This document shows, piece by piece, positions 9,859-28,213 of a stretch of 64,000 nucleotides of DNA. Source of the stretch: Ignavibacteriales bacterium (GTDB taxonomy: Bacteria > Bacteroidota > Ignavibacteria > Ignavibacteriales > Ignavibacteriaceae); the NCBI GenBank assembly GCA_015709675.1, contig CP054182.1, forward strand, positions 1,405,448 through 1,469,447. Reading direction: 5' to 3'. How positions within the stretch are numbered: the stretch's first letter is position 1; every line of letters begins with the position of its first letter. Position numbers and translations under genes: made by a program. Under the pieces are notes generated by a model, which saw only the letters and a program-made list of their open reading frames with translations, searched no databases and was not told the origin of the DNA.

Positions 9859-9996
9859 TTTTGATAAATCTTTCGGATAAAAAAGTGAGAAAATAGTGCT
9901 TCAAAATAGGGAGATGGGGGGAATTAGGGAAACAAAGATGCAGAATTGAAATTTTAGTAAAATTAAAAAATTTTGAGGAAGAAAGAGGAAAATTTA

Positions 9997-10078: not shown

Positions 10079-10214
10079 CACTGATGATTAAAAACCCGGA
10101 GCTATTTTATTTGATGTGTTAACAGTCAGTTACCGAGGAATTCTCGGTTACCAAATTGAAGTATGTATCAGAGAGTTTTCAGGGAATGAAAGTCACTAAT
10201 TTTAAGAAAAATGC

Positions 10215-10243
10215 TTGCCATTTTACGTGAATCTCTTATTTTG
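10215..10243 (+). promoter_or_regulatory. Candidate Bacteroidota-type promoter for the GTPase block
   Basis: TTG at 10215-10217, a 19-bp spacer and TATTTTG at 10237-10243 resemble the TTTG / TAnnTTTG consensus of the Bacteroidota primary sigma factor. Transcription would start near 10250 and give a leader of about 370 nt before the first GTPase gene. This is pattern matching only; the region is AT-rich and chance matches are possible. Confidence 0.35.
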
Positions 10244-10373
10244 TCAGGAAAGGATTTGATATCTTTTTTGGACGAAGTTTTTAACAAAGGAAAATTTTAA
10301 TAGCTGGGCTGAAAACCAGAGGAGTAACCACATGATTTTTACAGAATGGGTATTACTTACCCAAATCAAACCT

Positions 10374-10417
10374 CCCAATGCATTTCATATGGTTTTGTAA
10401 AACATGAAACCATTGGG
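10374..10417 (+). other. 44-nt near-perfect hairpin in the leader of the GTPase block
   Basis: CCCAATG at 10374-10380 pairs with CATTGGG at 10411-10417. Inside it, tttcat pairs with atgaaa, and gtttt pairs with aaaac around a two-base centre. The whole 44 nt folds on itself with only small internal mismatches. No T-run follows, so it is not a standard terminator. It could be a DNA operator or an RNA leader structure about 200 bp before the first gene. The rest of 10079-10620 holds a small palindrome (accgaggaattctcggt, about 10131-10147) and no convincing gene. Confidence 0.55.
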
Positions 10418-10620
10418 AAAGGGCGGAATCCCCAAAAACCTCAAATATTTCATTTTTTCTCTTCCGAATTCAGTTTCGATAAATAACTCGCAAATTGAGA
10501 ATCCGGTTCAAAAAATCCTCTCATCTGACCAATCTAATAAATTTTCTCCAGACAAATGCTGCCCGGGTGGCAATTCTCTAATTCTTAATCAAATGTAACA
10601 ACAATTAAAAAGGCACGGCT

Positions 10621-12249: not shown

Positions 12250-12255
12250 TGCAAT

Positions 12256-13821
12256 ATGGATTCTATTAATTATACAACCGCTTTTAACTTAGTCAGTAAA
12301 ATTGTTCAGAACGGCGAGGGGGAAAGCTTTTTGCAGGATATTGCCGGTCTGAATAAGATTATTAATACCGACCTTCCGGAGGCAATGAAGGACTACGCCC
12401 CCTCAAATTTTGCAGAAATTTACTCGGATTTCAAATATACTTTTGAAAAATTTACGGACTTTATTCTTTTTGACAAACTTATTGGCAAAAACACTGTTAC
12501 TCTTGGGGGTGGTTTCAGCACAGGAAAGTCCAGTTTTATAAATGCACTTCTTAAAAACCGGATGTTACCTTCAGAGATAGATCCTTCAACATCAGTGCCG
12601 ACGTATGTGATTCATGGGGCAAAGGAGAGTGCGATAGGAATAAACGTTTTTAATAAAAAGGTAGATCTGGCAATTGAAGAGTTGAAAATCATTTCACATG
12701 GCTTTACTTCAGAATACAATGTGAAGTTCGGGCATTTACTGGAGACCATATTTGTTGAAACTCCGGAGCAGCCATTTAAGTCAATTTCATTTCTTGATAC
12801 GCCCGGCTACTCTAAACCTGAGTCAGAAAATTACTCAAAGAAAACCGATGAAAATATTGCCAGAACACAGCTTAATTCAGCCAATTTTATTTTATGGTTC
12901 GTAAGTGCGGAAGAAGGTACAATCACCGATGAGGATATTAAATTCCTGCAATCCTTGAACAGCGGTATTCCTTTTGCGGTTATTGTAAATAAATCTGACA
13001 AAAGAGCAGAGTCAGATGTTTCTGACATTGTCGGGCTGGTAAAACAAAATCTTACTAATAGGGGAATATTTCCTCTTGATGTGATACCGTTTTCCTGCAG
13101 ATACCCTGAGAAGTTTGGGAAGGAACAGATTCAGAAACTTCTTGCAAACTGGAATAAACAGGAATACGCCTCAACCTTTGCCAGGGATTTTAAGATTTTA
13201 TTTGTAGAATGTATCGAATATTTCGAGGAACAAATAAGGAATGAATCCAGGCGACTTAACTGGATTAATACGGGAATGACGTTCTCTGATATTCCAGAGG
13301 TGAATGAAGCATTTACAAATCTAAGCAATGAGATAAAAATTTTCTTGAAAAACTACAGGGATAAAGAAAAAAATCTAAAAGAAATTAAAGATCTCTTTTT
13401 TAAGGAAATCAAATCGGTTGCCGATAAATATGGTATTGAGATGCCTGAACCATCAGAACTGGATTTACTTTCCTTCAAATCCCTTGATATCTTCAATTTA
13501 GTGCGAAAGAATAAAGACAAGAGAGGAATAAAAACCGGAGATTATTTCCATATCCTGCAGAACCAATTGACAGAATTACAAAAAAACGAAGAAATTTTAG
13601 TGTGGGGTCAAAAGTATTCAAAGATAATTGAAGATACAATCACTGAACAACTGGTGATAGAAGACGGTGCTTTGAATATGCATGTATCTTCTTCGGGAAG
13701 TATAAGGAGCAATCTTGGAGGTAATTTTCTGCCAGTAGAAGAAAATAACAAATTATTCACACAAACAATCAGGAAAAATTTAAGAAATACGATTAATCGT
13801 CAAAATCAAAAGGAGTATTAA
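12256..13821 (+). CDS. Dynamin-like GTPase 2
   Basis: A 521-residue GTPase with all nucleotide motifs: G1 GGFSTGKSS at 85-93, switch-I threonine region STSVPTY at 111-117, G3 DTPG at 181-184 and G4 NKSD at 245-248. An 80-residue helical extension precedes the G domain, as in bacterial dynamin-like proteins where the first bundle is split around the G domain. The C-terminal half is helical and has no obvious hydrophobic insertion segment, unlike GTPase 1. Bacterial dynamins often work as adjacent pairs in which only one subunit contacts the membrane, so GTPases 1 and 2 may be hetero-partners. The spacing is 6 bp before and 3 bp after, with an AAGGAG site ahead of the next gene. Confidence 0.85.
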   Translation: MDSINYTTAFNLVSKIVQNGEGESFLQDIAGLNKIINTDLPEAMKDYAPSNFAEIYSDFKYTFEKFTDFILFDKLIGKNTVTLGGGFSTGKSSFINALLKNRMLPSEIDPSTSVPTYVIHGAKESAIGINVFNKKVDLAIEELKIISHGFTSEYNVKFGHLLETIFVETPEQPFKSISFLDTPGYSKPESENYSKKTDENIARTQLNSANFILWFVSAEEGTITDEDIKFLQSLNSGIPFAVIVNKSDKRAESDVSDIVGLVKQNLTNRGIFPLDVIPFSCRYPEKFGKEQIQKLLANWNKQEYASTFARDFKILFVECIEYFEEQIRNESRRLNWINTGMTFSDIPEVNEAFTNLSNEIKIFLKNYRDKEKNLKEIKDLFFKEIKSVADKYGIEMPEPSELDLLSFKSLDIFNLVRKNKDKRGIKTGDYFHILQNQLTELQKNEEILVWGQKYSKIIEDTITEQLVIEDGALNMHVSSSGSIRSNLGGNFLPVEENNKLFTQTIRKNLRNTINRQNQKEY

Positions 13822-13824
13822 GAA

Positions 13825-15012
13825 ATGGCTGAATCTCGAATAAAAATTGATAATATTGATAAGGCAAGAGCATATTTCAAAGAAAAGAAAAATGAAGTCT
13901 ATAAACTTACCAGGCATCCGTTAACAAAAGAGAGCGAATATCTTAAGGAATTATATGTGGCATTGTTATGCAGTGTTGCTGCATACGATGGTAAGTTGGC
14001 AGAGGGTGAAACCAATTATATTAAAAGAGTGATGTTAGGAATGGAGCTCAACTCTGAATTTGCAAAAGTTGTTAAAATGGGACTTGAAATAGATCAGAAA
14101 ATGATTGATGAATTTATAAAGGCCTTCAGCGGTAACGACTATAGCCATTGCTTTTTAGCTGATTCATTAGTAGTGGCGGCAAGTGATGGCGTGCTGCATG
14201 ATAAGGAAATTGAACTTGTAGCCGAAATATCGGAGCTGTTGCTGATTGTTAAAGAAGATGTTGATAAAATCTCAAAGCTCATTTCGGTAGTTTTCTTAAG
14301 AAAAATTGAGCTGATAAACAAATTCCTCGAATCAAATAAATTCGATTTGAATTTTGATTACCTGATTAAGAGTTTTGTGCCAAACTTCGTAAATCCGGAA
14401 ACTTTTGAAACAATCACTGGAGATGTACTATATGAAAATGATAAAATATTCTTAAAGAAACACATTAGATTCGACAATGCAAAAATTTCCATTAAGGATA
14501 ATGTTGCATTAAAATTTGAAGGACTTGAAACAGTAGAATTTATAAATTGTGAGATCGAAGGAGGCGAAAATAACCCAATTTTTGTTACTAATACTGGTAA
14601 TGTTAAAATTCAGCAGTCAAAATTCTCTAATTTTAGCACAAAAGTGATGATTTTTGATACCATAACTTCTTTAATCGTTAAAGATTCGCATTTTGAAAAT
14701 TGCGGTTATAAATTTTATAGTAGTTGGAAAAATATTCATAAGTCTGGAGGAATTTTTTTATTAACAAATACCACTTTCACAATGGAGAATTGTGTGTTTC
14801 ATGAATGTTACATAAGGAACCATGAAAGCGATGATGAGCAATATACTCCAAGTGGCTTTGTTGCTTGTATTGTAAGATCTTCTGGAACAGTTCGGGGTAA
14901 TCTGTATAAAGATTGTTATGCAAAATCAAATAACTACAGCAGGAATGGTTCGGCCTTGTTTTTTAATAACGATGGAAGTAAAATTTATGAATCTACAAAT
15001 ATGTTTCAATAA
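13825..15012 (+). CDS. TerB-like domain fused to a right-handed beta-helix
   Basis: A 395-residue two-part protein. Residues of about 35-165 look like a TerB domain: two helical halves each carry an acidic DG loop (AAYDGKLAEGE at 52-62, AASDGVLHDKEIE at 118-130), the internally duplicated TerB pattern. Residues of about 195-395 have short repeating strands (VEFINCEIEG, VKIQQSKFSNF, LIVKDSHFENCGY, FTMENCVFHECY, TVRGNLYKDCY) that read as coils of a parallel beta-helix. TerB domains occur at the inner membrane and in defence-associated loci, and the beta-helix could bind a surface or polymer. It begins 3 bp after GTPase 2, with a good AAGGAG site, so it is translated with it. The base composition is strongly AT (16 G/C in 60 bases from 14461). 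Confidence 0.7.
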   Translation: MAESRIKIDNIDKARAYFKEKKNEVYKLTRHPLTKESEYLKELYVALLCSVAAYDGKLAEGETNYIKRVMLGMELNSEFAKVVKMGLEIDQKMIDEFIKAFSGNDYSHCFLADSLVVAASDGVLHDKEIELVAEISELLLIVKEDVDKISKLISVVFLRKIELINKFLESNKFDLNFDYLIKSFVPNFVNPETFETITGDVLYENDKIFLKKHIRFDNAKISIKDNVALKFEGLETVEFINCEIEGGENNPIFVTNTGNVKIQQSKFSNFSTKVMIFDTITSLIVKDSHFENCGYKFYSSWKNIHKSGGIFLLTNTTFTMENCVFHECYIRNHESDDEQYTPSGFVACIVRSSGTVRGNLYKDCYAKSNNYSRNGSALFFNNDGSKIYESTNMFQ

Positions 15013-15025
15013 AAGGAGAAGAGTT

Positions 15026-15358
15026 ATGAAATGGATAGTCCGAGGCACGATTAAAAAAGTAAATATTGTTTGCTGTGCAAATAGTTCGGTTGTTAAGTTT
15101 GAAATGAACTACAAAGATATTTACTTGAATGAAAATATTCTGGCTGTAAATAAGGATATTTCAGAAAATGATAATGCAAAGTTAATAGCGAAAGGAGAAT
15201 ACCTATTCGAAGCAACGGTAGATGCGGGATTTGTGCTCTCTGTTTTTGAGAATCGTATGATAGTGTCATTAATTTTTGAAACAGATAATATTAAAGATAT
15301 CTTTAAGGAGGGCACAGCCATTCGGATTGATTCAATTGAGTTAGATCTTGAAAAATAA
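15026..15358 (+). CDS. Small hypothetical protein of the GTPase block
   Basis: I set the start at ATG 15026, which follows an AGGAGAAGAG site at about 15014-15023; the frame is open further upstream but that part overlaps the previous gene. The product has 110 residues, no signal peptide and no membrane segment. It is predicted to be beta-rich, with alternating hydrophobic strands (IVRGTIKKVNIVCCANSSVV, FVLSVFENRMIVSLIFE). I do not recognise a family. Its last 11 bp overlap the next gene, so the two are translationally coupled, which argues it is a genuine partner of the SIR2-like protein. Confidence 0.6.
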   Translation: MKWIVRGTIKKVNIVCCANSSVVKFEMNYKDIYLNENILAVNKDISENDNAKLIAKGEYLFEATVDAGFVLSVFENRMIVSLIFETDNIKDIFKEGTAIRIDSIELDLEK

Positions 15359-16925
15359 GTCACTCATATTTATTGGAGCTGGCGCAACAGCTCAAATAAT
15401 GGGTGCAACAGAAGAGCTAAATCGAATTATTTATTCGCTTTTCAGCAGTAAGACAGAAGATTTTTACGAGAATTCTTTTGAAGATGATCATAACAAGGGA
15501 TTCAATACTTTATTAAAATTGTTGGATCCTGCTAAAATGGATTCCGAGATTGAGCGGAAAGCATCTGAATATGCTAGTATCTACGATTTAAATCCTGAAG
15601 AGCTTAAGTTTAGCCTGCGTGGTTTATCTTCTATCTATGACTATGAATGTCTGTCTCATTTAGTAAGTATAACTGCCAATCAAACAGAAAAGAAGGTTGA
15701 TTTAATGCTGCTCTACTCAACCATTGATCTCTTAATTAAAGATCAGGGAGGCCTACAAGCAGAAGCAAAATTCTTTGATTTGACCAGAATTAGGAAAGCG
15801 CGCAGTTTACTGAATGTAGTAATTCATACAATTTTGATGTGCCAGACAGCTAATGCCATAAAATCTCCGCAAAAAACTATACCGTACCTAAGTTTTGTTA
15901 ATGAGTTGGTTGAATACACAAGATTAGAAAGTATTGAATTAGGAAAAAAGCACTCTGGTGATTTTACTGATCCTGATTTTGTAAATTTTGGATATTCTGT
16001 TGTTTCATTCAATTGGGAACCTTTAATATTGGGAATGATATTTAAGGCGCATAAAGACTTTAATCATAGTGGAATGACGCCTTATCTTGGGAATAATTGT
16101 TTGCGGCTCCGTTTGTTTAATGATTTTGGTCTGACAATAGGAAGTTTGAGAAAAGATAATAAAAACGATGTGGGGAAAGTCTGGTATCAGGGACATGAAT
16201 CAATCGCTATCCGTGTTAATGATTCAGAATATCCCTCAAGATTAATGAGGGTCGGCAAATTTCTTTTTCCCCATGGCAGTCTTGCTTTTCGAATGTGCCC
16301 GGTTTGCCGAAAGACAAATTTTGTGGTTAGGGGGATCGACAATTTGCTGAATTACTTCGGACCTGGCATTCTCCCTGAATTCAACGATTTTTATTCTCAG
16401 GGACTGCTTACAGAAGCTGAATCCAAATCTTTTAAGAGGGGGCATTTTGACGCCCTTGAGTGCTATTGCTGCAAAAATATTATGAGAATGGTAGATACTC
16501 CGCTAATAATGCAAACTGCCTTCAAAGATAAATATCCGCCAATTCTTGAAGAATCGCTCTATGAATTAACTGTGCAGCTTATAAAAGCCAATCATTTACT
16601 TTTTATTGGATACAAATGTTCAGAAGATGATGTGGTTTATCGTTCAAAAATTCTGGCTGCAATTGCAAATTCAAAAGATAAAAAAGTAAGTGTGGTTTTA
16701 TTTGATAGGGCTCTACAAGACCAGAACTGGTTTGAACGTGAAGAGTTAAAGCAAAAGTTAGAATCCCCTCTAGTAAATTCAGAAACAAAGAAGTTGATTC
16801 AAAATTTCCTCGATCTATTTCAATCTGAGGATATTAAAATTAGAATATCGTTCAAGGGTTTTCCGCAAGTAGTTACGGAAGGAAGCTCCCCTCAAAGAGG
16901 GCTAAAGCAATTATTAGAATACTAA
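15348..16925 (+). CDS. SIR2-like NAD-binding protein with zinc ribbon
   Basis: A 525-residue protein read from a TTG at 15348 that overlaps the previous gene by 11 bp. The start of the fold shows IFIGAGATA (GAGAT at 10-14), the SIR2 nucleotide motif. SFNWEP with Asn222 corresponds to the family's FNxD region. FPHGS (His309) corresponds to the LHGS catalytic segment. Two cysteine pairs, CPVC (317-320) and CYCC (372-375), frame a zinc ribbon as in sirtuins. LLFIGYKCSEDD near the C-terminus matches the late SIR2 motif. In bacterial defence loci, SIR2 proteins deplete NAD+ in infected cells; a deacylase role is less likely in this setting. The family call rests on motifs only. Confidence 0.7.
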   Translation: MKNKSLIFIGAGATAQIMGATEELNRIIYSLFSSKTEDFYENSFEDDHNKGFNTLLKLLDPAKMDSEIERKASEYASIYDLNPEELKFSLRGLSSIYDYECLSHLVSITANQTEKKVDLMLLYSTIDLLIKDQGGLQAEAKFFDLTRIRKARSLLNVVIHTILMCQTANAIKSPQKTIPYLSFVNELVEYTRLESIELGKKHSGDFTDPDFVNFGYSVVSFNWEPLILGMIFKAHKDFNHSGMTPYLGNNCLRLRLFNDFGLTIGSLRKDNKNDVGKVWYQGHESIAIRVNDSEYPSRLMRVGKFLFPHGSLAFRMCPVCRKTNFVVRGIDNLLNYFGPGILPEFNDFYSQGLLTEAESKSFKRGHFDALECYCCKNIMRMVDTPLIMQTAFKDKYPPILEESLYELTVQLIKANHLLFIGYKCSEDDVVYRSKILAAIANSKDKKVSVVLFDRALQDQNWFEREELKQKLESPLVNSETKKLIQNFLDLFQSEDIKIRISFKGFPQVVTEGSSPQRGLKQLLEY

Positions 16926-16940
16926 GGAGAAATTACAAAA

Positions 16941-19070
16941 ATGTTTACCAAAACTCAGGCAATTGAAAAGGTATTTGATGAATATGCATCAAAGATTGAT
17001 AAGATAATAAATTCGCTTAAGAAGCATGAAGATTCTTCACAGTCGTTTGTTAAAATTAAGGATCATTTTGCAAATAAGACAAATGATTTTTACCGTGAGG
17101 ACAGGAAACTTCGTATTGCCGTTATAGGGCAGGTAAAGGCAGGTAAATCAACATTCCTGAACACCATGCTTTTTGACGGACAGGATGTATTGCCAAGGGC
17201 TGCTACACCGAAAACCGCGAATCTTACGGTTATTAAATACGGAGATACCAACTTTCTGGAAATTGATTTTTATTCCAAAAGTGAATGGGATGAATTAGTT
17301 AAACTCGCCAGTTCTGCCGCAGAGATTGAAACTGATGAAATAAAGGTTGCAAAAGAAATTGTAGGGATGGTACAGAAACAAGGCATCAGTGTTGAGGAAT
17401 ATCTTGGCAAAAATGACTACAGGATTGAGTTTTCGACTTATGATGAACTACTTGGAAGATTAAACGATTTTGCCGGCGCAGACGGCAAGATAACGCCTCT
17501 GGTAAAATCGCTCCAGATGACCATTAATAATGAGAAGATTAAGAATATTGAAATAGTGGATACTCCAGGAATGAATGATCCGATAGTTTCCCGCACTGAT
17601 AAAACAAGGCAGTTTATCGAATACTGTGATGTGGTTTTCTTTCTGAGCAGATGCCCAAAATTTTTAGATAAAACCGATATGGAGCTTTTAACCAGACAAC
17701 TGCCTCAAAAAGGGGTCAGTAAAATGTATCTGATTGGCAGTCAGTATGATTCGTCAATAAATGATTCTATTTGGGAAAAAGGCAGTTATCAAAAAGCAGA
17801 TGCGGATAACAAAAAGCGGCTTATGGAAAGGGCAAATTCCGAATTCGAAAAGTTAATTGAAAAAATGAAGGAGAGAAATGTTAAAGATTCAATTCTTGAG
17901 GTGATCGCTAATTGCAAAAAACCGATACTGATTTCCTCAATGGCTCATAACATGGCTAAAAAGGAGAGGGCATATTATAATGAGGAGGAGATGGTTGTGT
18001 TCGCAGGCATTTCAGAATATGAAAAAAAATTAAACAAAGAAATGCTGCATACACTGGGTAATTTCAAGACTGTGAACAGTGTTTTTTCAGAAATTGTCGA
18101 AAATAAGGACAAGACGTTAGAAGCAAAAGCCGTGCATTTTATCCCCACTTCAGTAGCAGAAGTTAACGGTGAATTGGATGCATTAAAATCTAAGGTTGAA
18201 AAGCGAATAACAATTCTTTCCGCTAATGATATCGCCAGATTAAAAGAGAGTAAAAAACACACGCTCTCACTCAAGCATAAAATTCAGGCCGATATAGAGA
18301 ATATATTTGGCGGAGTCGCGTTAAATTTAGAGAAATTGAAAACCGAGCTTTTTAGTGACATTCGCAAGACCATGAGAACTTATTCCAGAATTACAGAAAG
18401 AACAGGCACCGAAGAAAGGACAGGATATAATGAGGTATCCGCTTCCTCGTTCTGGAGACCTTGGACTTGGGGGACCACTAAAATGGTGGCATATAAATAT
18501 ACCGCTACCTATACCTATCTGGATGTAAGTGATGCGATTGAGAACATCAGGAATTATGCGAATGACACAAGTACAAGTATTGAGGAGAAATTAAATGAAT
18601 CGCTTAATTTAAGTAAAACTAAAAGAGAATTGCTCACTGTGGTTGTCCAAAATTTTGATACAACCGATGATGATTTTGACCCTGCTTATTTCCGTCTGCT
18701 GGTTGAAAAGACTCTGAATTCGGTCGAGATACCAGTGATAAAAATTGATATTAAGAATGAAATCAAGAATTTAACATCTTCGTTTAGCGGAGAAATACGT
18801 GATGGCTCAGAAAAAAGTTCTCTTCAGTTAGCTATGAATGATGCTTTGCACAGTATTTTTGAGTTTATTGAGGGGAACCTGGTTAAGGAGTTCGTTAAAA
18901 TTAAAAGCAGCATACAAAATTTGAAAGATTCTCTGGCTGATCAGTTGCTGAAGGATATTACGGATGAATTGGATAACATTGAACAGTTGTTCAAGAATCG
19001 TGAAAAAGAGCTAAAGAATAATGAAGAATTGCTGAAAGTGATTGCTGATTGTAAAAAGCTGGTTGCTTGA
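16941..19070 (+). CDS. Dynamin-like GTPase 3 with tryptophan-rich paddle loop
   Basis: A 709-residue dynamin-like GTPase. G1 GQVKAGKST is at 63-71, the switch-I region PRAATPKTA at 85-93 and G3 DTPG at 207-210. The expected G4 NKxD is replaced by SQYD (267-270), so guanine specificity may be altered or use other contacts. Long helical stretches follow. A loop near residue 505 reads SASSFWRPWTWGTTK and sits between helices where dynamin-like proteins place a membrane-inserting paddle tip. It starts 15 bp after the SIR2-like gene with an AAGGAG site, and it ends the block. An N-terminal 55-residue helical region is split from the rest of the bundle by the G domain, as in the family. Confidence 0.85.
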   Translation: MFTKTQAIEKVFDEYASKIDKIINSLKKHEDSSQSFVKIKDHFANKTNDFYREDRKLRIAVIGQVKAGKSTFLNTMLFDGQDVLPRAATPKTANLTVIKYGDTNFLEIDFYSKSEWDELVKLASSAAEIETDEIKVAKEIVGMVQKQGISVEEYLGKNDYRIEFSTYDELLGRLNDFAGADGKITPLVKSLQMTINNEKIKNIEIVDTPGMNDPIVSRTDKTRQFIEYCDVVFFLSRCPKFLDKTDMELLTRQLPQKGVSKMYLIGSQYDSSINDSIWEKGSYQKADADNKKRLMERANSEFEKLIEKMKERNVKDSILEVIANCKKPILISSMAHNMAKKERAYYNEEEMVVFAGISEYEKKLNKEMLHTLGNFKTVNSVFSEIVENKDKTLEAKAVHFIPTSVAEVNGELDALKSKVEKRITILSANDIARLKESKKHTLSLKHKIQADIENIFGGVALNLEKLKTELFSDIRKTMRTYSRITERTGTEERTGYNEVSASSFWRPWTWGTTKMVAYKYTATYTYLDVSDAIENIRNYANDTSTSIEEKLNESLNLSKTKRELLTVVVQNFDTTDDDFDPAYFRLLVEKTLNSVEIPVIKIDIKNEIKNLTSSFSGEIRDGSEKSSLQLAMNDALHSIFEFIEGNLVKEFVKIKSSIQNLKDSLADQLLKDITDELDNIEQLFKNREKELKNNEELLKVIADCKKLVA

Positions 19071-19083
19071 GAGAATTGGTTTT

Positions 19084-19443
19084 AAGGACAAGAAGGACTA
19101 AAAAGACAAGAGGGACAGGAAGGACAACAAGGACAACAAGGACTGGAAGGACAACAAGGACAACAAGGACGAGAAGGACAGTAAGGATATGAAGGACGGA
19201 AAGGACAAGAAGGACAGGAAGGAAAGCAAGGACTGGAATGACAGCAAGGACTGGAAGGACAGCAAGGACAGAAAGGACAACAAGGACTGGAAGGACAACA
19301 AGGACAGAAAGGACAACAAGGACTGGAAGGATAACAAGGACTGGAAGGACAACGAGGATGAGAAGGACAGCGAGGATGAGAAGGACAGCAAGGACTGGAA
19401 GGACAACAAGGACAAGAAGGAGAACAAGGACAAGAACTGGAAG
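19084..19443 (+). repeat. 9-bp minisatellite array of about 40 units (AAGGACnnn)
   Basis: About 40 consecutive 9-base units with invariant AAGGAC (variants GAGGAT, AAGGAT, AAGGAA) followed by AAC, TGG, AGC, AGA, AAG or GAG, in unbroken register. Because 9 is a multiple of 3, several frames stay open and would encode KDx triplets. I do not call them genes: the forward frame meets a TAA in the second unit and the reverse frames are open only because the repeat has no stops. The array lies between the GTPase block and the four-helix-bundle gene. Its complement recurs at 20107-20140. Confidence 0.9.
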
Positions 19444-19517
19444 AACCGGAAAGAAAGCAATTACAGGTAAAAAACACGATTCTCAAAAAAGGTGAAAACT
19501 AGAAGGAATGAATTTTA

Positions 19518-20099
19518 ATGGAAGACAACAATAAAAACCCGAAGGGTTTTATTCCTAAACATGGCGGGTACCGGAAACTGAAAAGCTATCAGAAAGCCGA
19601 GATTATTTATGACGGGACAATTTATTTTACCAAACGGTTCTTTAAAAGCTATGACCGCACAGTAGATCAAATGGTGCAGGCAGCCAGAAGCGGTAAACAG
19701 AATATTGCGGAAGCTAGCATAGCCTCTGCTACTTCCAAAGAAACTGAGATTAAGCTTACCAATGTTGCAAGAGCTTCTTTAGAAGAACTGAGAATTGATT
19801 ATGAAGATTTTATAAGAAAAAATAATTATCAGATTTGGGATATAGACCACGAACTGGTTGCCCGCCTCAGAGAATTAAACAGAATTCCCGATGCTGCTTA
19901 TGAGACTTTCCGTAAGGCAATTGAAAATGAAAATCCTGAAATTTGTGCCAATACTATGATTGGTTTGATAAGAGTGGCAAGCTTCCTCCTGAATAATCAA
20001 ATTAAATCTTTAGAGGAATCTTTCATTAAAGAAGGCGGTCTTCGTGAAAGAATGACCAAGGTCAGAATAGATCACCGAAACAACAACCAGGGAAATTAG
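19518..20099 (+). CDS. Four-helix-bundle protein (S23 / IVS-like family)
   Basis: A 193-residue, mostly helical protein. The core (about 20-170) matches the 23S rRNA intervening-sequence (S23) four-helix bundle: GGYRKLKSYQKAEIIYDGT, then a basic helix (TKRFFKSYDRTVDQMVQAARSGKQNIAEAS) and LEELRIDYEDFIRK. Relatives are encoded inside intervening sequences of bacterial 23S rRNA and beside diversity-generating retroelements; they bind nucleic acid as pentamers. No rRNA or reverse transcriptase is nearby. The gene sits between the forward minisatellite and an inverted copy of it, so its transcript could fold with the gene in the loop, as in a true IVS. Confidence 0.85.
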   Translation: MEDNNKNPKGFIPKHGGYRKLKSYQKAEIIYDGTIYFTKRFFKSYDRTVDQMVQAARSGKQNIAEASIASATSKETEIKLTNVARASLEELRIDYEDFIRKNNYQIWDIDHELVARLRELNRIPDAAYETFRKAIENENPEICANTMIGLIRVASFLLNNQIKSLEESFIKEGGLRERMTKVRIDHRNNNQGN

Positions 20100-20106
20100 C
20101 GACGCA

Positions 20107-20140
20107 GTCGTTATTGTCCTTGCTGTCCTTATTGTCCTTT
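20107..20140 (-). repeat. Inverted copy of the 9-bp repeat behind the four-helix-bundle gene
   Basis: Read on the minus strand this is three to four AAGGACnnn units. TGTCCTTGCTGTCCTT at 20115-20130 is the exact 16-base complement of AAGGACAGCAAGGACA at 19255-19270 in the forward array. It starts 8 bp after the stop of the S23-like gene. Confidence 0.8.
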
Positions 20141-20153
20141 GAAGGCGTATATA

Positions 20154-20188
20154 CAAAAAAACCCGGCCATTGCTGACCGGGTTTTTTG
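20154..20188. terminator. Bidirectional rho-independent terminator
   Basis: A-run, then ACCCGG (20161-20166), a 10-base loop, CCGGGT (20177-20182) and a T-run. A- and T-runs on both sides let it serve the four-helix-bundle gene on the plus strand and the S46 peptidase on the minus strand. Confidence 0.85.
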
Positions 20189-20210
20189 TTTTTAACAGGG
20201 GTGTTAATTC

Positions 20211-22436
20211 TTACTGAGCCTGTTTGTCGGTTTTGGTTTTGTCTGCCGGATTCATTTTTCCGTTCTTCAGTTCGTTTGCAAGGCGTGTGGCTTTGTAAAC
20301 ATCTGCTACGGATTCATATATACCGGAGGAGTGTACCGCAACGGTTCTGTTTGCTGTTTCATCAAAGATGAACTGTCCCGGCAGGCTTTCGATGTTGCCG
20401 TCGAATGCAATACCTACTACTTCACCTTTTGAGTTAATCATAGCTGAACCGGAGTTGCCGCCGATGATGTCGTTTGTTGCTACAAAGTTCATCGGGGTCT
20501 CAAGATCAAGCTCTGCGGGAGGATTTACCCACTTCTCAGGAAGATTCCACGGGAATTTGCCTTCATGTGAATAGTAACGGTCGTAGAGTCCGAAGAAGGT
20601 GGTGAACACCGGAGCAGTGGTTCCGTTATAGTTATATTTTTTCAGCACGCCGTCTGAGATTCTGAGTGAGAATGTTGCATCAGGCGGAATGGAGGTGCCG
20701 TACACTTCAAAGAGCGCGCGGCCAAGCTGCTGATTGTAATCAGATTCTTTTAAGTTGAGCGCGCGTGATCTCTGCATGAATGCAGTTCCCTGGTCGAATG
20801 TCGCAAGCACATACTGAATGAACGGGTCATTGCTGGAGAGTATTTCTTCAGGGCTCTTGTTTGCAAGTTCAAGCACACCTTCTTTGGTGGTGACTTTTGC
20901 ATTTGCGAGTGCATAGTCTGCTGCTGCTTTACCGGTTTTGCCGCCGCTGAGTTTTGTAACGAGCGGATCATTATTGCCGAGCACCATCTGGAAGACGCGG
21001 ATATTCTGCTGAAGCTGTTTGTCGCTGAGCGGCTTATCAAACTTTTCAGGCCAGAGGTTATCTTTATACTTCTGAAGCATATCCCCCTTGAACATCGGCT
21101 GACGTTCATCTTCCGGCTTCTTCATTTCTTTTGCGAGGTCAATCAGCGCTTTTGCAAAGAAGAAATATTTTGAAGTGAAGTTCGGGTTCAGATTATAAGC
21201 GAATGATTTTTTCGCGAACGTTCTCAGTTCTTCACGAACTGCTTTGATGGAATCCCAGAGACCATAGTAGGAAGAAAGCGCGGGCTTCTTCATTACTTCG
21301 TTTTTGAAATTCTTTTCAAAGTCATATTTTTTCTGCATCAGGTAGGGATCTCTCAGTCCGCCGAGGATTCCGTTGAATGCTTTCTGTGAGTTCATAATGC
21401 CGAAATACTGATCGGAAAGTTCAAGCTCTCTCTCTGGATATTCAGCAATCATTTCGCCGTATACAGCAGCAAGCGAGCCAAGCACTTCAAGCTGCAGCGG
21501 ATAAGCTATATCACGGAAGTACTCAAGCTGAGCAACGGTTTTCAGACGGTTGGTGGTGCCAGGGTTCCCGACAACAAAAATCGGTTCGCCCCATTTCGGG
21601 CCGTCGGTGCTCCACTTGTAAAAGTGGGTTGACTTAATCGGTTCGCCTTTATCATCATACGCACGGAAAAAGGTATAGTCAAGATTATAACGGGGGTAGG
21701 TGAAGTTATCCGGATCGCCGCCGAAGAAGCCCATCTGTTCTTCAGGTGCAAAAACCAGGCGGATATCGGTATATCTCTTAAACCCGTAGAGGGAATATTT
21801 GCCGCCGTTAAATAGAGTGATGGTCTGATATTTCAGGCCGGTTTCTTTAGCGTATTTTTCTTCAAGTTCCTTGCTCTTTGCTTTTTTCAGGTCATCTTTT
21901 TCTTTCTGAGTGGTGCCTGCATCAATAGCTGCCTGCATTTCAGAGGTGATGTCCTTAATTTCAACGAGCTGATCAACATAAAGGCCTTCAATTTTTCTTT
22001 CATCAGCAAGCGTTGGAGCCCAGAATCCGTTGCCGTGAAGATCTTCACCATCCCGGGTAGCCGAAGTAATGCTCTGGCGCGCGCAGTGGTGATTGGTCAT
22101 AATCAGACCGTCTTCCGAGACGAAAGAAGCTGAGCAGTAGTTGGCAAAGCGGAGGGCTGCCATTCTGACATTGTCCAGCCACTCGTCGGTTGCGTGAAAA
22201 TCATATTCAGCTTTCAGGTGATCTTTCGGAGGGAAGTCGAAAGTCCACATTCTTCCGGTATCAAACTTGCCTGCCTTAACAGTATCAAGCTTTACCCAGG
22301 TTGGTGCGGTGTTATTGGACTCCTGTTTGGTATCCGGAGCATAGGTTTGTGTGTGGTGAGACGGCGAGCATCCGATGATTCCGGCCAGAAGCAGCAGGGT
22401 CATCAGTTTCATGCCGTTAGCCAGGGCTTTAGACAT
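20211..22436 (-). CDS. S46-family dipeptidyl-peptidase (DPP7/DPP11-like), lipoprotein
   Basis: A 741-residue serine peptidase that removes dipeptides from peptide N-termini in the periplasm or at the surface. The N-terminus has a lipobox (IIGC, Cys23). The chymotrypsin-like fold shows the catalytic-His segment MTNHHC at about 113-118 and the catalytic-Ser segment GGNSGSA (Ser about 662), followed by GEVVGIAFDGN. FFGGDPDNFTYPRYNLD is characteristic of the family, with a helical cap inserted between the two halves. The length matches DPP7/DPP11 (about 710-720). The residue deciding hydrophobic (DPP7) or acidic (DPP11) preference is near the GIAFDG segment and I cannot assign it. It is monocistronic. 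Confidence 0.92.
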   Translation of the reverse strand: MSKALANGMKLMTLLLLAGIIGCSPSHHTQTYAPDTKQESNNTAPTWVKLDTVKAGKFDTGRMWTFDFPPKDHLKAEYDFHATDEWLDNVRMAALRFANYCSASFVSEDGLIMTNHHCARQSITSATRDGEDLHGNGFWAPTLADERKIEGLYVDQLVEIKDITSEMQAAIDAGTTQKEKDDLKKAKSKELEEKYAKETGLKYQTITLFNGGKYSLYGFKRYTDIRLVFAPEEQMGFFGGDPDNFTYPRYNLDYTFFRAYDDKGEPIKSTHFYKWSTDGPKWGEPIFVVGNPGTTNRLKTVAQLEYFRDIAYPLQLEVLGSLAAVYGEMIAEYPERELELSDQYFGIMNSQKAFNGILGGLRDPYLMQKKYDFEKNFKNEVMKKPALSSYYGLWDSIKAVREELRTFAKKSFAYNLNPNFTSKYFFFAKALIDLAKEMKKPEDERQPMFKGDMLQKYKDNLWPEKFDKPLSDKQLQQNIRVFQMVLGNNDPLVTKLSGGKTGKAAADYALANAKVTTKEGVLELANKSPEEILSSNDPFIQYVLATFDQGTAFMQRSRALNLKESDYNQQLGRALFEVYGTSIPPDATFSLRISDGVLKKYNYNGTTAPVFTTFFGLYDRYYSHEGKFPWNLPEKWVNPPAELDLETPMNFVATNDIIGGNSGSAMINSKGEVVGIAFDGNIESLPGQFIFDETANRTVAVHSSGIYESVADVYKATRLANELKNGKMNPADKTKTDKQAQ

Positions 22437-22752
22437 AGAGCGTATCCTCTTATATGTTATGGTTTTATAAAGAAATAAACATTAAAATTACGAAAATAAT
22501 GCTTCAGGGGGGAGGTAAAATGATGAATGGTTAATTATGAAGTATGAATTATGAAGTAAGAATTGTGAATTGTGAATTGTGAATTGTGAAGAACGGCTTT
22601 ATCAACAATCTCCGGAGATTTGTATTAACCAGGTAATTTATCAAGCTGGTTTTTAGAGGTGAGTTTAGGGTAGCGGGTTCCGTCCGGATCAGGCCGGGGT
22701 CTCTAAGTGGTTGAAAACAGGGGAGTTGCACAGATGCAGCTCCCCTGTACTG
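22437..22752. repeat. Intergenic region with AATTATGAA / GAATTGT short repeats
   Basis: No gene seen. It contains aattatgaagtatgaattatg (about 22530-22555) and a tandem gaattgt run (about 22559-22590). The same words recur at 25940-25980 and 53310-53345, so they are a genome-wide low-complexity family. A short inverted element follows near 22700. Confidence 0.5.
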
Positions 22753-23058
22753 TTAAATGTATGAGTCTGGGAAATAGAGGGGTTCTATATTCCACTCATC
22801 CTCTACGGTGCCGCCGCAGTGGGAGCATTTGTCAACGTTGAAGGTAACTTTTTCCTCAGCGTCGGAAGCACGGACCATATTAACCACCGTGCCGCATGAC
22901 GAACACTGTACCACATGGTGTGAGAGGGTTTTTTTGTTGCATCTTGGACAGATGTGCCCCAGTTCCCCGGGGTCTTCGGCCGGATCAACCAGAAATGTTG
23001 AACGGCAGCGGGCATTATTGCAAATTGCAAAATGCTTTCCTTGGTCTGTAACAGTCAT
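22753..23058 (-). CDS. Small four-motif zinc-ribbon protein
   Basis: A 101-residue protein with four cysteine pairs: Cys13/Cys18, Cys37/Cys40, Cys52/Cys55 and Cys78/Cys81. They form two zinc ribbons in a row. There is no signal peptide, so it is cytosolic. The middle (CPRCNKKTLSHHVVQCSSCG) is typical of rubredoxin-like or general zinc-ribbon domains that bind nucleic acid or act as assembly scaffolds. I do not recognise a named family. It is flanked by repeat DNA on one side and a long upstream gap on the other, so it is probably transcribed alone. Confidence 0.75.
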   Translation of the reverse strand: MTVTDQGKHFAICNNARCRSTFLVDPAEDPGELGHICPRCNKKTLSHHVVQCSSCGTVVNMVRASDAEEKVTFNVDKCSHCGGTVEDEWNIEPLYFPDSYI

Positions 23059-23481
23059 TCGATAAAATGTCTCCGGACTTTCTGAGTGTTAAAGTACTAA
23101 TCTGCTGTGAAAATCATCCCAAAGCAGAAGAGTTTCCCTGTCAAAATACAGGAAATTAACCTTTTGCCAAAACAAATTTTCAAAAACAGATATACTAAAT
23201 AACCCGCTTTCCGGAGTAAAACGATTCAAAAAAAATCCCCTTTTGAGGTAAAATTCAGCACACCAACGGAAGAACGGGTCATTTTATGAACACTCAAAGG
23301 GATGCGGCTGACCTCCTGGCGTGCTTTCTTCATCCCGGCTAATATCCGCTCATCATTCTTTGCCGGAAAAAGAAACGGAAATAAGGATTTTTGTGTTCTT
23401 AAAGTTAAACCCTTCGGTGGGGAAATACATCTAACACCGTACACATTTTAATCAACAATAAATTATTCTCAGAAGATACAG
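23059..23481. other. Intergenic region upstream of the TonB receptor
   Basis: About 420 bp with divergent promoter space for the zinc-ribbon gene and the receptor. A frame on the minus strand at 23226-23444 could encode 72 residues but has no convincing start context. The only structure I see is an inverted pair gggatg / catccc around 23300-23340. I looked for a SAM or cobalamin riboswitch core and did not find one. Confidence 0.4.
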
Positions 23482-25941
23482 ATGACCAGACATATTGCAG
23501 CCCTGATGCTGATAAGTTTTTCGCTCTTTGCACAGGCCCCCAACTTTCAGAACTTTGAAGGGAAAATTACCGGCAAGGTGATTGACTCCCTGGATAAATC
23601 GCCGCTCGAATACGTTAACCTGGTTCTCACGAATCAGAAGGATGGTTCAATAGCCGCCGGAACCATTACCAGTCCCAAAGGCACATTTACCCTTGATAAA
23701 CTGACTCCTGGAAAGTTTGATCTTTCTGTTTCTTTTATCGGATATCAGACCCGTGTATTCAAGGATCTGTTAATCACCCCGAAGAATCCTTCAATTGATT
23801 TTGGCACTTTGCTGCTTGTGCCAAGTTCGGTAAATCTTGATGAAGTGGTGGTTAACGCTGAAAAAGAACTGATTACCAATCATCTTGATAAAAAAGTAAT
23901 TACGGTTGATAAAGACCTCACCTCGGCAGGGGGTACGGCAACTGATGTTCTGCAGAATGTTCCCTCTATTCAGGTGGATGCTGACGGCACAGTTTCTTAT
24001 CGGGGCAACACAAATCTTACGATACTCATTGACGGGCGCCCCGCGGGAATGAGCGGCCTGAGCGCATCGGATATACTGGCACAGATTCCTGCAAGCAACA
24101 TCGAGGCCATTGAACTGGTGACTAATCCGAGTGCAAAGTATGATCCTGAAGGCACAGCCGGCATTATCAATATAAAACTGAAGAAAAAAGGAAACAACGG
24201 CTTTAACGGTGTTGCCTCCGTTAACGCGGGAACCGGAGATAAATATAACTCATCGATCAATTTTAATCTGAAGCAGGGGGAGTTTAATTTCTTTGGCAAT
24301 TATGACAACAGATTTAATTACATGAATTTTTCATCGGAAACCTTCCGAGAAAATTATCTGAGCGGAGGAACAACATTCCTTGATCAGTATACAGCCGGAA
24401 CCAACCGTTTCCAGAATCATACGGCGGGTTTTGGCGCTGATTATTATTTCAGCGAACGGGCTACTCTTACTCTTGCATATCAGTTCCGCTGGTTCTCTCC
24501 CGCGTTCCGCAACACGCTTGAGAATGAAAATTTTAATGCTGCCAATACCCTCATGCGCTCATATATCCGCAAGACTACGGCAGACCGTGAGATGGAGTCA
24601 AACAACTTCACCATGACCTACAAGCGTACTTTCGAAAAGAAAGACCGCGAACTGCTTACTGACGTAATGTACAATTCATTCTCCATGGACCGGGATGAGG
24701 AGATATATACACAGGATACGGATGTAATGACCGGCACGGGCCTTGATCCCTTTATGACCAATGGTATATCAATAAACAGCAATAAACAGTGGGTTATTCA
24801 GACCAATTATATTGAGCCGTTTTCGGATAAAACAAAACTAGAAGCTGGTTTTAAGAGCCAGATAAAGAATCTTTCAACGAAGAATGATTCATATAATCTT
24901 CTCGGCGGAAGCTGGGTTGAAGATGCAACGCAGAAAAATTATTTTGATTACGACGAGCAGATTCATGCTGTTTACGCTACGCTGACCAGTGAAATCGGGA
25001 AGTTTAAATATCTGCTGGGTCTCCGCGGGGAGCAGCTTATTGCCGAGGGAAATGTTACCTCACAGAATCAGAAATTTGAAAGTGATTATTTTCAGGTATA
25101 TCCTTCAGCACATGTCGGATATAACCTTGCGCAGGGGAATGACCTGCTCCTTAGTTACAGTAAGCGCGTTGACCGCCCGAATAACCGTCAGTTAAATCCC
25201 TTCCGCGATGTGGCTGATTCAACGTTTATTGTTGCCGGTAATCCGAACCTGAAAGCGCAGTATACCGATGCGCTTGAGTTTGAATATCAGGGTACGTTCG
25301 GATTCACCTCGCTGACAGCAAGTTTGTTTTATAAGCAGACGGGTGATATTATCTCCATGGTCAGCTCCATGCAGCCGGACGGCGCGCTGTATTCAACGTT
25401 TGAAAATATTGCTGATGGTAAAAACATCGGTACGGAACTGGTTCTTATACAGCCGCTTGCAAAGTGGCTCCGGTTAAGCGCAACCTATTCTTATTATCAG
25501 GCAAGCGTAAAGGGAGGCACTGCGGCTAATCCGATTGATAATAAAGGCAACAGCTGGACAACAAGAGTTAACGCAAACTTTGTTATATCTCCTGATTTCA
25601 CCCTTCAGCTGGTGGGAATGTATAATTCACCATCAATTTCGATGCAGATGGGTTTTGGCGGCGGAGGAAGTACCGTGATGGCGCAGGGTAAGGTGAAGGA
25701 AATGTATGGTATTGATCTTGCCGGAAAGAAAGACTTTTTTGAAGGAAAGCTCTCTCTTACCGCGCGTGTGAGTGATATATTCAATACCAGGAAGTTTGCA
25801 TCAGAGGGAACCGGTGCGGGATTTTATCTGAATACTACCAGGAAGTTTGATTCACGGGTTGTATATCTTGGCCTGAGCTACCGCCTTGATACCAAATACC
25901 GCGAAAGAAGAATTAAAACGACCGGCGAAGACGAAATGTAA
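23482..25941 (+). CDS. TonB-dependent outer-membrane receptor
   Basis: An 819-residue outer-membrane protein. After a signal peptide (to about residue 18, LFAQ), residues 28-115 form a carboxypeptidase-regulatory-like beta-sandwich (KITGKVIDSLDKSPLEYVNLVL). A plug follows at about 120-220 (TATDVLQNVPSIQVDADGTVSYRG, NPSAKYDPEGTAGIINIKLKK), then a beta-barrel of the OMP_b-brl_3 type to the end. It lacks a canonical SusD partner downstream, so it is not a standard polysaccharide-utilisation pair. The ligand cannot be deduced. Energy would come from TonB-ExbBD. The gene stands alone with repeat DNA after it. Confidence 0.9.
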   Translation: MTRHIAALMLISFSLFAQAPNFQNFEGKITGKVIDSLDKSPLEYVNLVLTNQKDGSIAAGTITSPKGTFTLDKLTPGKFDLSVSFIGYQTRVFKDLLITPKNPSIDFGTLLLVPSSVNLDEVVVNAEKELITNHLDKKVITVDKDLTSAGGTATDVLQNVPSIQVDADGTVSYRGNTNLTILIDGRPAGMSGLSASDILAQIPASNIEAIELVTNPSAKYDPEGTAGIINIKLKKKGNNGFNGVASVNAGTGDKYNSSINFNLKQGEFNFFGNYDNRFNYMNFSSETFRENYLSGGTTFLDQYTAGTNRFQNHTAGFGADYYFSERATLTLAYQFRWFSPAFRNTLENENFNAANTLMRSYIRKTTADREMESNNFTMTYKRTFEKKDRELLTDVMYNSFSMDRDEEIYTQDTDVMTGTGLDPFMTNGISINSNKQWVIQTNYIEPFSDKTKLEAGFKSQIKNLSTKNDSYNLLGGSWVEDATQKNYFDYDEQIHAVYATLTSEIGKFKYLLGLRGEQLIAEGNVTSQNQKFESDYFQVYPSAHVGYNLAQGNDLLLSYSKRVDRPNNRQLNPFRDVADSTFIVAGNPNLKAQYTDALEFEYQGTFGFTSLTASLFYKQTGDIISMVSSMQPDGALYSTFENIADGKNIGTELVLIQPLAKWLRLSATYSYYQASVKGGTAANPIDNKGNSWTTRVNANFVISPDFTLQLVGMYNSPSISMQMGFGGGGSTVMAQGKVKEMYGIDLAGKKDFFEGKLSLTARVSDIFNTRKFASEGTGAGFYLNTTRKFDSRVVYLGLSYRLDTKYRERRIKTTGEDEM

Positions 25942-26533
25942 TTGAATTATGAATTATGAAGTATGAATTATGAATTGGAGAGCGGTTTAACCCCAGTGAG
26001 AGAAAGGCGCGGTATTTAACGCGCCTTCTCTTTTTAATGGCACACTGATCGTAAACAGATGCTATAGCAGCTCGGATATTTGCGGATCGAAAGTTGCTTC
26101 GGAAAGTTTCCCGCAGATTTCGCAGATAAACGCAGAGTATAGTCTTCTAAATGGGGTGCGGATTAAACAGATGCTAAAGCAGCGCTGATATATGCGGATC
26201 GGAGGCGCTCAGGAAAGTTTTCCCGCAGATTTCGCATATGAACGCGGAATTCTTTGTGCCTTAGGATCTTTGCGCGAGCCGTAAACAAAGGAAGACAATT
26301 TTTCCGCTGATCAGGTTCTTCCAAATAGCCCGCGGATTATACGGATGCTAAAGCAGCACGGATATATGCGGATCGGAGGCACTCAGGAAAGTTTTCCCGC
26401 AGATTTCGCAAATAAACGCAGAGTATAGTCTTCTAAATGGGGTGCGGATTAAACGGATGCTAGAGCAACACGGATATATGCGGATCGGATAAGAAGAATT
26501 CTGCATTCTTCATTATCCACTATCCATTATCAA
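25942..26533. repeat. Intergenic repeat field with four copies of a ~110-bp unit
   Basis: No gene. Four imperfect copies of a unit begin at about 26043, 26161, 26336 and 26453. Each opens with (g)attaaacGgatgctaaagcagc-type sequence, continues with ggatatatgcggatcgga, and ends with cccgcagatttcgcaaat plus aacgcagag. The second copy has an insertion with tttgcgcgagccgtaaac. Phrases overlap with the repeats at 1714-1975 and 7069-7222. AAT-rich low-complexity words occupy both edges. Confidence 0.75.
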
Positions 26534-28213
26534 TTATTTCATCTTTGCCCAGGTATCTTTAAGAGTGACCGTCCTGTTGAAGACTAATTTTTCTGCTGTT
26601 GTGTATTTCGTGTCAACGCAAAAGTAGCCGTTCCGCTCGAACTGAAATGTTGCTCCCGGTTTGGCGTCTTTCACAAATGGCTCAGCCACTGAGCTGCCAA
26701 GAATTTCCAGCGAGTTTGGGTTTATATATTCCTTGTAATCTTTTTCTTTTTCGCTGCCCGGATCTTCCGTGGTGAAGAGACGGTCGTAGAGACGCACTTC
26801 AACCGGGACTGCATGTTTTGCTGATACCCAGTGAATAGTTCCTTTTACTTTTTTCTGTGAAGTACCGGTGCCGCTGCGGGTCTCGGGGTCGTAGGTGCAG
26901 CGGAGTTCAATGATTTCACCTGCTTCATTTTTTACGACTTCTTCACATTTGATGATATATGCATAGCGCAGACGCACTTCCATACCTGGCGCGAGACGGT
27001 GATATTTTGGGACGGGCACTTCCATAAAATCACCCTGTTCTATATATAACTCCCTGGTAAAAGGAATCATACGTGTGCCCATGGCGGAATCTTCGGGATT
27101 ATTAATGCCTTCAAGTTCTTCGGTCAGGTCTTCGGGATAATTGGTCAGAACAACCTTAAGTGGTTTGAGCACTCCCATAACCCGCTGAGCTTTTTTGTTC
27201 AGGTCTTCACGGATTGCATATTCAAGCAGTGCAATATCAGTAAGGGCATCACGCCGGGCAACCCCGATAATATCCGCAAAGTTGCGGAGTGATTCTGGTG
27301 TATATCCTCTTCTTCTCATGCCGCTGATGGTTGGCATGCGCGGGTCATCCCATCCGTCCACATAATTATTTTTTACCAGTTCAAGCAGTTTCCGTTTGCT
27401 CATTACGGTATAGCTGAGGTTCAGCCGGGCGAACTCAATTTGCTGCGGATGATAAACACCAAGCTCATCAAGAAACCAGTCATAAAGCGGCCGGTGGTTT
27501 TCAAACTCAAGTGTGCAGATGGAGTGGGTGATGCCTTCCAGGGAGTCCTCAATGCCATGAGCCCAGTCGTAGGTCGGATATATACACCATTTGTTCCCCT
27601 GGCGGTGATGTTCCGCGTGAACGATCCTGTACATTATCGGGTCGCGCAGGTTTATGTTTGGTGATGCCATATCAATTTTTGCACGGAGTGTTTTGGCGCC
27701 GTTTGGGAATTCACCATTTCGCATTCTTGCGAAAAGGTCAAGGTTTTCTTCAACGCTTCTGTTCCGGTAAGGGCTGTCGGTACCGGGCTGAGTGAGTGTG
27801 CCTCTGGTGGCGCGGATTTCATCTCCGTTTAGTTCGCACACATACGCTTTTCCCTTTTTAATCAGGTCAACCGCATATTCGTACATCTGCTCAAAATAGT
27901 CGGATGCATAAAAGAGGCGGTCTTCAAAATTGCCCCCAAGCCAGCGCACATCCTCAACAATGGAGTCAACATACTCCTGCTCCTCTTTTTCCGGGTTGGT
28001 ATCATCAAACCGCAGATTGAACTTCCCCTTATAATCCTCTGCCAGCCCGAAGTTCAGGCAGATAGACTTTGCATGACCGATATGAAGGTAGCCATTTGGC
28101 TCGGGCGGAAAGCGGGTATGAACCCTTCCGTTCCATTTATTGGTTTTCAGATCTTCGTCAATGATTTCTCTGATGAAGTTCGATTTTTTCTGCGGTTCAG
28201 AAGCTAAGCTCAT
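26534..28213 (-). CDS. glnS: Glutaminyl-tRNA synthetase
   Basis: A 559-residue class I aminoacyl-tRNA synthetase, the usual length (E. coli 554). [17 protein letters not shown] contains HIGH at 44-47, and the KMSKS-equivalent VMSKRK lies at about 270-275. [15 protein letters not shown] and the C-terminal anticodon-binding beta-barrels ([24 protein letters not shown]) are present and separate it from glutamyl-tRNA synthetase. It charges tRNA-Gln with glutamine, so the organism need not rely only on the amidotransferase route for Gln-tRNA. It is monocistronic; the 28214-28634 gap upstream is shared with the giant-protein operon on the other strand. Confidence 0.97.

Follow-up and report, generated by a model that had tools for sequence, protein, structure and literature searches.

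Intervening sequences of 23S rRNA in Coxiella and in further organisms carry open reading frames for S23 (IVP) proteins. In Coxiella the ORF lies within complementary ends that could pair into a stem of about 28 bp (PMC4990558). The window, by which is meant the whole 64,000-nt stretch of Ignavibacteriales DNA analysed here (contig CP054182.1, positions 1,405,448 to 1,469,447), contains an S23-like gene among protein genes, with 9-nt repeat arrays on either side that are complementary to each other. This raises the question of whether gene and arrays belong together and, if so, what kind of unit they form. A sequence-only reading had proposed a free-standing relative of the rRNA intervening sequences in which tandem arrays supply the stem, perhaps a mobile or RNA-processed element.

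Results

The S23 locus of the window

The locus comprises the following features, in window coordinates.

19084-19436, + strand: left array, about 39 units of AAGGACnnn (353 nt, by tandem-repeat detection)
19255-19270, + strand: 16-nt stretch, exact complement of 20115-20130
19518-20099, + strand: gene for an S23/IVP four-helix-bundle protein of 193 aa whose C-terminal part is a TIGR04258 suffix domain
20107-20139, - strand: right array, about four inverted 9-nt units (GTCCTTnnn on the + strand), able to pair with the left array
20157-20189, no strand assigned: GC-rich hairpin with a T run behind it (AACCCGGCCATTGCTGACCGGGTTTTTT), resembling an intrinsic terminator, immediately beyond the right array (read by eye, unscored)

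The assignment of the gene as S23-like, made earlier from the letters, was borne out by two profiles that its product matched above their curated cut-offs, TIGR02436 (31.2 bits, cut-off 24) and TIGR04258, '4helix_suffix' (73 bits, cut-off 40); the score against Pfam 23S_rRNA_IVP (PF05635) was 27.4, below the cut-off of 33.8. The predicted model is helical (pLDDT 88) and is consistent with a four-helix-bundle fold. A structure search with this model returned PDB 2gsc and 2rld as best matches, at modest E-values of 0.02-0.15, and a weak match (E 1.1, probability 0.93) to another four-helix bundle, Avd of a DGR complex (PDB 8ub7 chain B); family profiles detected no reverse transcriptase among five neighbouring proteins scanned at the locus. 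Searches of the PDB by phmmer with the single window protein, and with a profile of the suffix-type protein set, gave no match. A profile of plain S23 proteins matches 2gsc and 2rld, which have five chains each, and the Xanthomonas S23p structure is termed a homopentamer (PMC4990558). Family profile searches of the S23 protein showed no RAYT (HUH, Y1) transposase domain.

Two features of other suffix-type proteins were noted in passing. L050, L051, L054, L056, L064 and L162 have a zinc ribbon (CPxC...WGCxGxPxC) joined to the C-terminal end of the S23 part; we take the ribbon to be of the topoisomerase kind, and it would fit single-stranded DNA binding and hints at an affinity for nucleic acid. 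In L056, L162 and L173 the variable loop resembles a translated short-unit array (DRTDQS, STTSTTST), a hint that arrays may grow inside the gene.

The left array begins 13 nt past the stop codon of a dynamin-like gene (16941-19070), and TRF also reports periods of 18, 27 and 54 for it. About 40 forward units ending 75 bp before the gene had been described; the array as detected ends 81 nt from the ATG at 19518, and the shorter spacing is a fair one because a degenerate tail extends to about 19451. The inverted group starts 7 nt from the S23 stop codon (8 had been counted), and the 16-base complement between 19255-19270 and 20115-20130 is identical over all 16 nt. Folding of the transcript 19080-20150, which had been suggested as a check, pairs the left array with the right group, 32 pairs joining 19110-19145 to 20105-20140; the best duplex between the two array regions has a predicted energy of -48.8 kcal/mol. 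The gene 3′ of the S23 gene is convergent. On the 5′ side, positions 13825-19070 may form a defence-type cluster; they encode TerB plus a beta-helix protein, a protein of 525 aa that matched no family, and the dynamin-like GTPase (Pfam Dynamin_N; PADLOC LeoBC, 40 bits).

In the window genome (G000; 4.21 Mb, one contig), three consecutive AAGGACnnn units were matched 29 times, versus 0 for the reversed control, and AAGGACnnn arrays are present in only two of 59 genomes of the order, both of which have a TIGR04258 gene. These arrays are therefore not due to chance. A relative of the locus in the same taxonomic family (L053, genome G236) has no detectable array.

Arrays accompany S23 genes outside rRNA

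The window genome has seven S23 genes, six plain ones and the suffix-type gene of the window, and S23/IVP proteins were found in 90 of 118 Bacteroidota genomes sampled. Three sets of loci were assembled. The plain panel (96 loci) joined the six of the window genome to 90 from the phylum Bacteroidota, a non-random choice made up of the 30 best-scoring loci of the phylum scan and the next 60 in listing order. The suffix panel held 50 loci, namely those of the first search and 20 more (17 in listing order, three chosen for kinship); 48 were usable after L168 and L174, in which no S23 ORF was found, were dropped, and the duplicate of the window locus (L061) was excluded. The cross-phylum set came from one scan of named genomes, in which at least 585 candidates were ranked by their similarity to one query alignment and the best 80 taken; it covers many phyla and includes one archaeal contig. 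Arrays were called at a tandem score of at least 9 within 200 nt of the gene, a threshold that visibly degenerate arrays escape, and complementarity at a score of at least 16 between the upstream flank and the reverse complement of the downstream flank. Regions 900 nt away from each S23 gene served as distant controls. Since these are often coding, a matched control was added, comprising all ordinary genes in 20-kb samples of four S23-bearing and four S23-free genomes.

Each of the six plain genes of the window genome has 7-mer runs upstream and their reverse complement downstream, with a distinct 7-mer at each locus. Across the plain panel, arrays were called at 48/96 loci upstream and 48/96 downstream, versus 1/96 and 2/95 in the distant controls, with periods mostly of 7, 14 or 8. 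Suffix loci had arrays, mostly of period 9, at 14/47 upstream and 20/46 downstream sides (controls 0/40 and 5/44), and among the best 80 of at least 585 cross-phylum candidates the figures were 63/78 and 50/78, against 12/75 and 7/74. Beside ordinary genes, arrays of period 7, 8 or 14 were found at 13/291 upstream and 18/291 downstream sides in S23-bearing genomes, and at 3/288 on each side in S23-free genomes.

The two flanks of a locus also match each other as inverted repeats. In plain loci the inverted flank match averaged 16.3, versus 9.8 for mismatched pairs and 11.1 for direct sense, and scores of at least 16 were reached at 48/96 loci and in 1/95 controls. For the best 80 of at least 585 cross-phylum candidates the count was 49/76 (controls 2/69, direct sense 10/76); beside ordinary genes it was 6/291 in S23-bearing and 2/288 in S23-free genomes. 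Suffix flanks scored at least 16 about as often in direct (12/46) as in inverted sense (13/46), partly because units such as GATCnGTC are near-palindromic.

When loci with shared flanks were merged, an array was present on at least one side in 46 of 51 plain clusters and 13 of 25 suffix clusters; counted by locus, the figures were 69/80 for the cross-phylum set (best 80 of at least 585) and 23/48 for the suffix panel. No array was detectable at 31/96 plain, 25/48 suffix and 11/80 cross-phylum loci (again the best 80 of at least 585). An Rfam scan of window positions 9000-27000 gave no match, none of the 20 loci scanned among these 80 lay in rRNA, and two queries for S23 in phages gave no match. 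Plain S23 genes outside rRNA, in Bacteroidota and across phyla, thus usually lie between inverted arrays, far above the level of ordinary genes, and the proposal of a free-standing relative with array-supplied ends holds as a rule of the family, beyond the window locus. The sequence-only reading would have been given up had genes without repeats, and repeats placed at random without the gene, shown no association: some homologues indeed have no detectable array and some arrays have no gene, yet the association stands far above matched controls. The window's own subclass, with suffix domain and 9-mers, is a weaker case for an array-bounded element.

Unit motif, polarity and position

Units were phased over all loci, and consensus motifs were compared with column-shuffled nulls. 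The 7-mers give nnAGKRR, with G in 94% (170 arrays; information 3.17, null maximum 2.76), the 8-mers AGTKnMRR (29 arrays; 4.35, null maximum 3.98) and the 9-mers GGWCnnATn (33 arrays; 5.76, null maximum 3.40). The purine-rich strand is the sense strand upstream in 98 of 119 cases and the antisense strand downstream in 94 of 116. Arrays are short, with a median of 4.6 units for 7-mers, 4.9 for 8-mers and about 4 for 9-mers. Unit length tracks the protein tree: for the 138 of 224 loci with a sufficiently clear period, 15 changes suffice, versus at least 32 in 200 shuffles, and for 7 versus 8 alone 11 changes, versus at least 15.

Plain elements lie in the direction of their neighbours. Both neighbours were on the same strand as the element in 38 of 47 clusters and on the opposite strand in two, and in the cross-phylum set (best 80 of at least 585) in 45 and three of 69 loci; suffix elements showed no such bias (six and eight of 23 clusters). 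Median spacing to the neighbours is narrow in plain elements and in the cross-phylum set (same limit to the best 80 of at least 585): 2-3 nt separate the upstream stop codon from the left array, and 7-8.5 nt lie between the end of the right array and the next start. This tight fit may arise in part from insertion into short gaps. The window locus has this anatomy, with a left arm 13 nt after a stop codon, on the sense strand, and an inverted right arm, and it would be a 9-mer, suffix-domain member of the proposed element family with an over-expanded left arm, an outlier of about 39 units versus about four in other 9-mer arrays.

Units of orthologous elements at one site can differ widely, yet the two arms of each element match. 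An element's own arms matched better than arms swapped between orthologues in 17 of 25 groups and worse in 6 (p=0.009); suffix groups alone (five up, three down, one tie among nine) displayed no coordinated turnover. Unit order is hardly conserved between arms: a register test reached p≤0.05 at 4 of 53 loci (Wilcoxon p=0.011). The matching is therefore at the level of units, and a strict stem is not demanded. For the same reason the idea that the arms are a copied long inverted repeat was dropped.

Solo arrays and dispersed copies

Arrays of the same kinds also occur in the window away from any S23 gene.

10002-10083, + strand: solo AAGGACnnn array without S23 gene, dispersed copy of the window motif
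22519-22590, + strand: solo 7-mer array of the TGAATTG/TGAATTA type, the motif of the L003 S23 gene, 5′ of the start of an S46 peptidase
25943-25976, + strand: solo 7-mer array, starting 2 nt past the stop codon of gene 23482-25941
26511-26537, - strand: solo 7-mer array (CATTATC on the + strand), the motif of the L006 S23 gene
53311-53398, + strand: two adjacent 7-mer arrays, 53311-53340 and 53367-53398

The motif of the plain gene L003 occurs at 23 sites in the window genome, its own locus included. Of the 22 solo arrays elsewhere, 20 lie behind a same-strand gene, 18 of them within 62 nt of its stop codon; between co-directional genes the AG strand is in sense at 14 of 16 sites. An inverted partner was found near two of the 22. 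In six other genomes with dispersed TGAATnn arrays, an S23 gene with matching flanks was seen in two, a partial link. The AG strand of the solo TGAATnn arrays of the window genome (L355-L373, L178) is on the locally G-rich strand, probably the leading strand, in 18 of 22; nothing is drawn from this bias because genes lean likewise. At another place in this genome (L010, 368904-371927, around its positions 1400-1640) a 9-mer array and several 7-mer arrays are adjacent, as if array families pile up.

Filled and empty sites

On two Calothrix plasmids (L405, L406) an element whose arrays form inverted ends of 28/31 nt separates an integrase gene from the gene that follows. The flanks of this site match 41 plasmid records, two of which span the whole stretch with S23. 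Among 11 of the remaining 39 that were examined, seven have only 2-4 nt between the two genes and are empty; three have a different 615-nt ORF (L415, L419, L420) and one a 216-nt ORF (L421), inserts that are not S23. In four of the seven empty sites, compared letter by letter, what is missing is the DNA from one outer array end to the other. Filled and empty sites also differ in the last codons of the upstream gene and in a few bases before the next start, and no target-site duplication is evident.

At a second plasmid site, two Nostoc plasmids (L407, L408) carry the element and a third plasmid (L413) is empty. At this site L412, with flanks 97% identical, has a 261-nt gap that contains inverted arrays (27/31) and no S23 gene; this is a gene-less mini-element. 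A chromosomal case was found in G069, in which the element is missing between the same two genes and seven congeners searched retain the stretch. Plain S23 elements are thus polymorphic for presence and absence, with boundaries at the repeats, as a mobile element would be; in principle, the empty sites could also be read as precise deletions. The suffix element L161, compared with 21 genomes of its genus, had rearranged flanks and no clean empty site. The suggestion of a mobile element, first made for the window locus, is accordingly supported for plain elements, for which there are empty sites and a gene-less derivative; the window locus itself may be mobile. Most plain copies are syntenic at high identity, so movement must be rare. 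The elements hold no recombinase- or transposase-like gene of their own, S23 being the sole gene.

Discussion

The best explanation overall is probably that gene and arrays are one element, and that S23/IVP genes outside rRNA constitute a widespread family of small (about 0.5 kb) insertion elements, with inverted arrays of about four to five tandem 7-, 8- or 9-nt units as ends and a four-helix-bundle protein as the product of the sole gene. The rRNA intervening sequences are their known relative. In both, an S23 ORF is enclosed by complementary ends; unlike the rRNA intervening sequences, the elements described here lie between protein genes, their ends are arrays of 7-9-nt units with a common AG/GGWC core, and solo arrays are dispersed. 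In the open-access PMC literature, to which the search was confined, no report was found that links S23 genes with tandem arrays.

Two known repeat systems bear on this reading. REP repeats and their RAYT (TnpA-REP) genes, like REPINs, combine a small gene with bracketing inverted repeats that are also dispersed near gene ends without the gene. The S23 arrays share this dispersal of the bracketing repeat, but they are short tandem units, not palindromes, and there is no HUH transposase. The second system is the TAACTGA repeats, intergenic tandem heptamers of Beggiatoaceae, cyanobacteria and Bacteroidetes, which in Beggiatoaceae have one strand before start codons and the other after stop codons, a rule that the repeat sets of Microcystis obey less clearly (MacGregor 2015, PMC4679880). 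The S23 arrays follow the same strand polarity. That paper proposes a role in regulation and ties the repeats to no gene, and its main text makes no mention of S23, four helix, intervening or 23S (PMC4679880).

Among other explanations, simple slippage of intergenic microsatellites, next to which the S23 gene would lie by chance, is highly improbable. The left array of the window is long and grades into degenerate units, and arrays occur without the gene, as slippage would have it; against it are clade-fixed unit lengths, the fixed strand, complementarity within each locus and a family-wide excess over ordinary genes, the matched control alone already contradicting it. Still more remote is that the window array is a small coding sequence, a lysine/aspartate-rich ORF of 93 aa (19189-19470, KDxKDx). 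Open reading frames do cross the array on both strands, but a stop-free 9-nt unit opens any frame, and the rule also holds for 7- and 8-nt units, which shift the frame.

A doubtful though serious candidate is an immobile RNA regulator. A TRAP-like S23 ring would bind RNA with AG repeats between cistrons and at 3′ ends; the inverted arm would compete with it for autoregulation, by pairing with the binding site and covering the next start, and the solo arrays would form the regulon. The sense orientation of the elements, the distance of 7-8.5 nt between the right arm and the next start, solo arrays that place the AG strand in the transcript after stop codons, the synteny of plain genes between species and the constantly small number of units would all agree with it. 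An insertion unit is indicated instead by the gene-less array pair and by empty sites whose limits coincide with the outer array ends, and the turnover of motifs between orthologues at the same site would be unusual for a regulon. We regard it as unlikely that the arrays are selfish dispersed repeats of the REP/RAYT kind, spread by the S23 protein or a partner, with the gene retained inside one array pair. AAGGACnnn arrays are dispersed in the genome that has the matching gene, and 57 of the 59 genomes surveyed in the order lack them; the L003 motif occupies 23 sites in the window genome, the gene's own included; and arrays of period 7, 8 or 14 are found at 31/582 gene sides in S23-bearing versus 6/576 in S23-free genomes. 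S23, however, has no known catalytic fold, 20 of the 22 solo arrays are without an inverted partner, and no matching S23 gene was found in four of six other genomes in which TGAATnn arrays occur.

If gene and arrays are indeed one insertion element, the S23 ring would bind the AG strand of the array with roughly one subunit per unit, and the strand polarity of the arrays fits a protein that reads AG on one strand. The analogy with TRAP, a ring protein that recognises NAG triplets at regular spacing along one strand, would be mechanical only, the folds being unrelated. In an operon transcript the arms might pair into a stem of about 30 bp with the S23 cistron looped out; this arrangement in RNA is suggested by the sense orientation, by the arms that can fold and by a location between a stop and a start codon. 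RNA processing, as the sequence-only reading had it, would fit the orientation and the foldable stem. Such a stem would hold the upstream stop near the downstream start, just as its counterpart in an rRNA intervening sequence preserves the helix of the rRNA, and the logic of the rRNA case would thereby be transferred to mRNA. In DNA the same arms would serve as terminal inverted repeats for movement; catalysis would have to come from another factor, a partner supplied by the cell being the simplest guess.

Taken together, these data allow a broader reading, to which we give somewhat less than even confidence: a new class of minimal insertion elements of bacteria and at least one archaeal contig, with inverted polar arrays of 7-, 8- or 9-nt units as ends and, as sole gene, that of a ring-forming four-helix-bundle protein reading one unit per subunit. 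They would insert in sense between cistrons and be hidden there as a looped-out RNA stem, would be the source of heptamers in tandem, those of the TAACTGA kind and probably also the STRRs of cyanobacteria, and would have the rRNA intervening sequences as the branch that moved into rRNA. S23/IVP proteins are widespread across phyla without known function, and for the heptamer repeats of cyanobacteria, Beggiatoaceae and Bacteroidota no origin is accepted; a link between proteins and repeats supplies each with a partner. If the element moves, it would be an insertion element with tandem-array ends and a protein without known catalytic fold, and array-ended S23 elements may explain short repeats scattered through many bacterial genomes.
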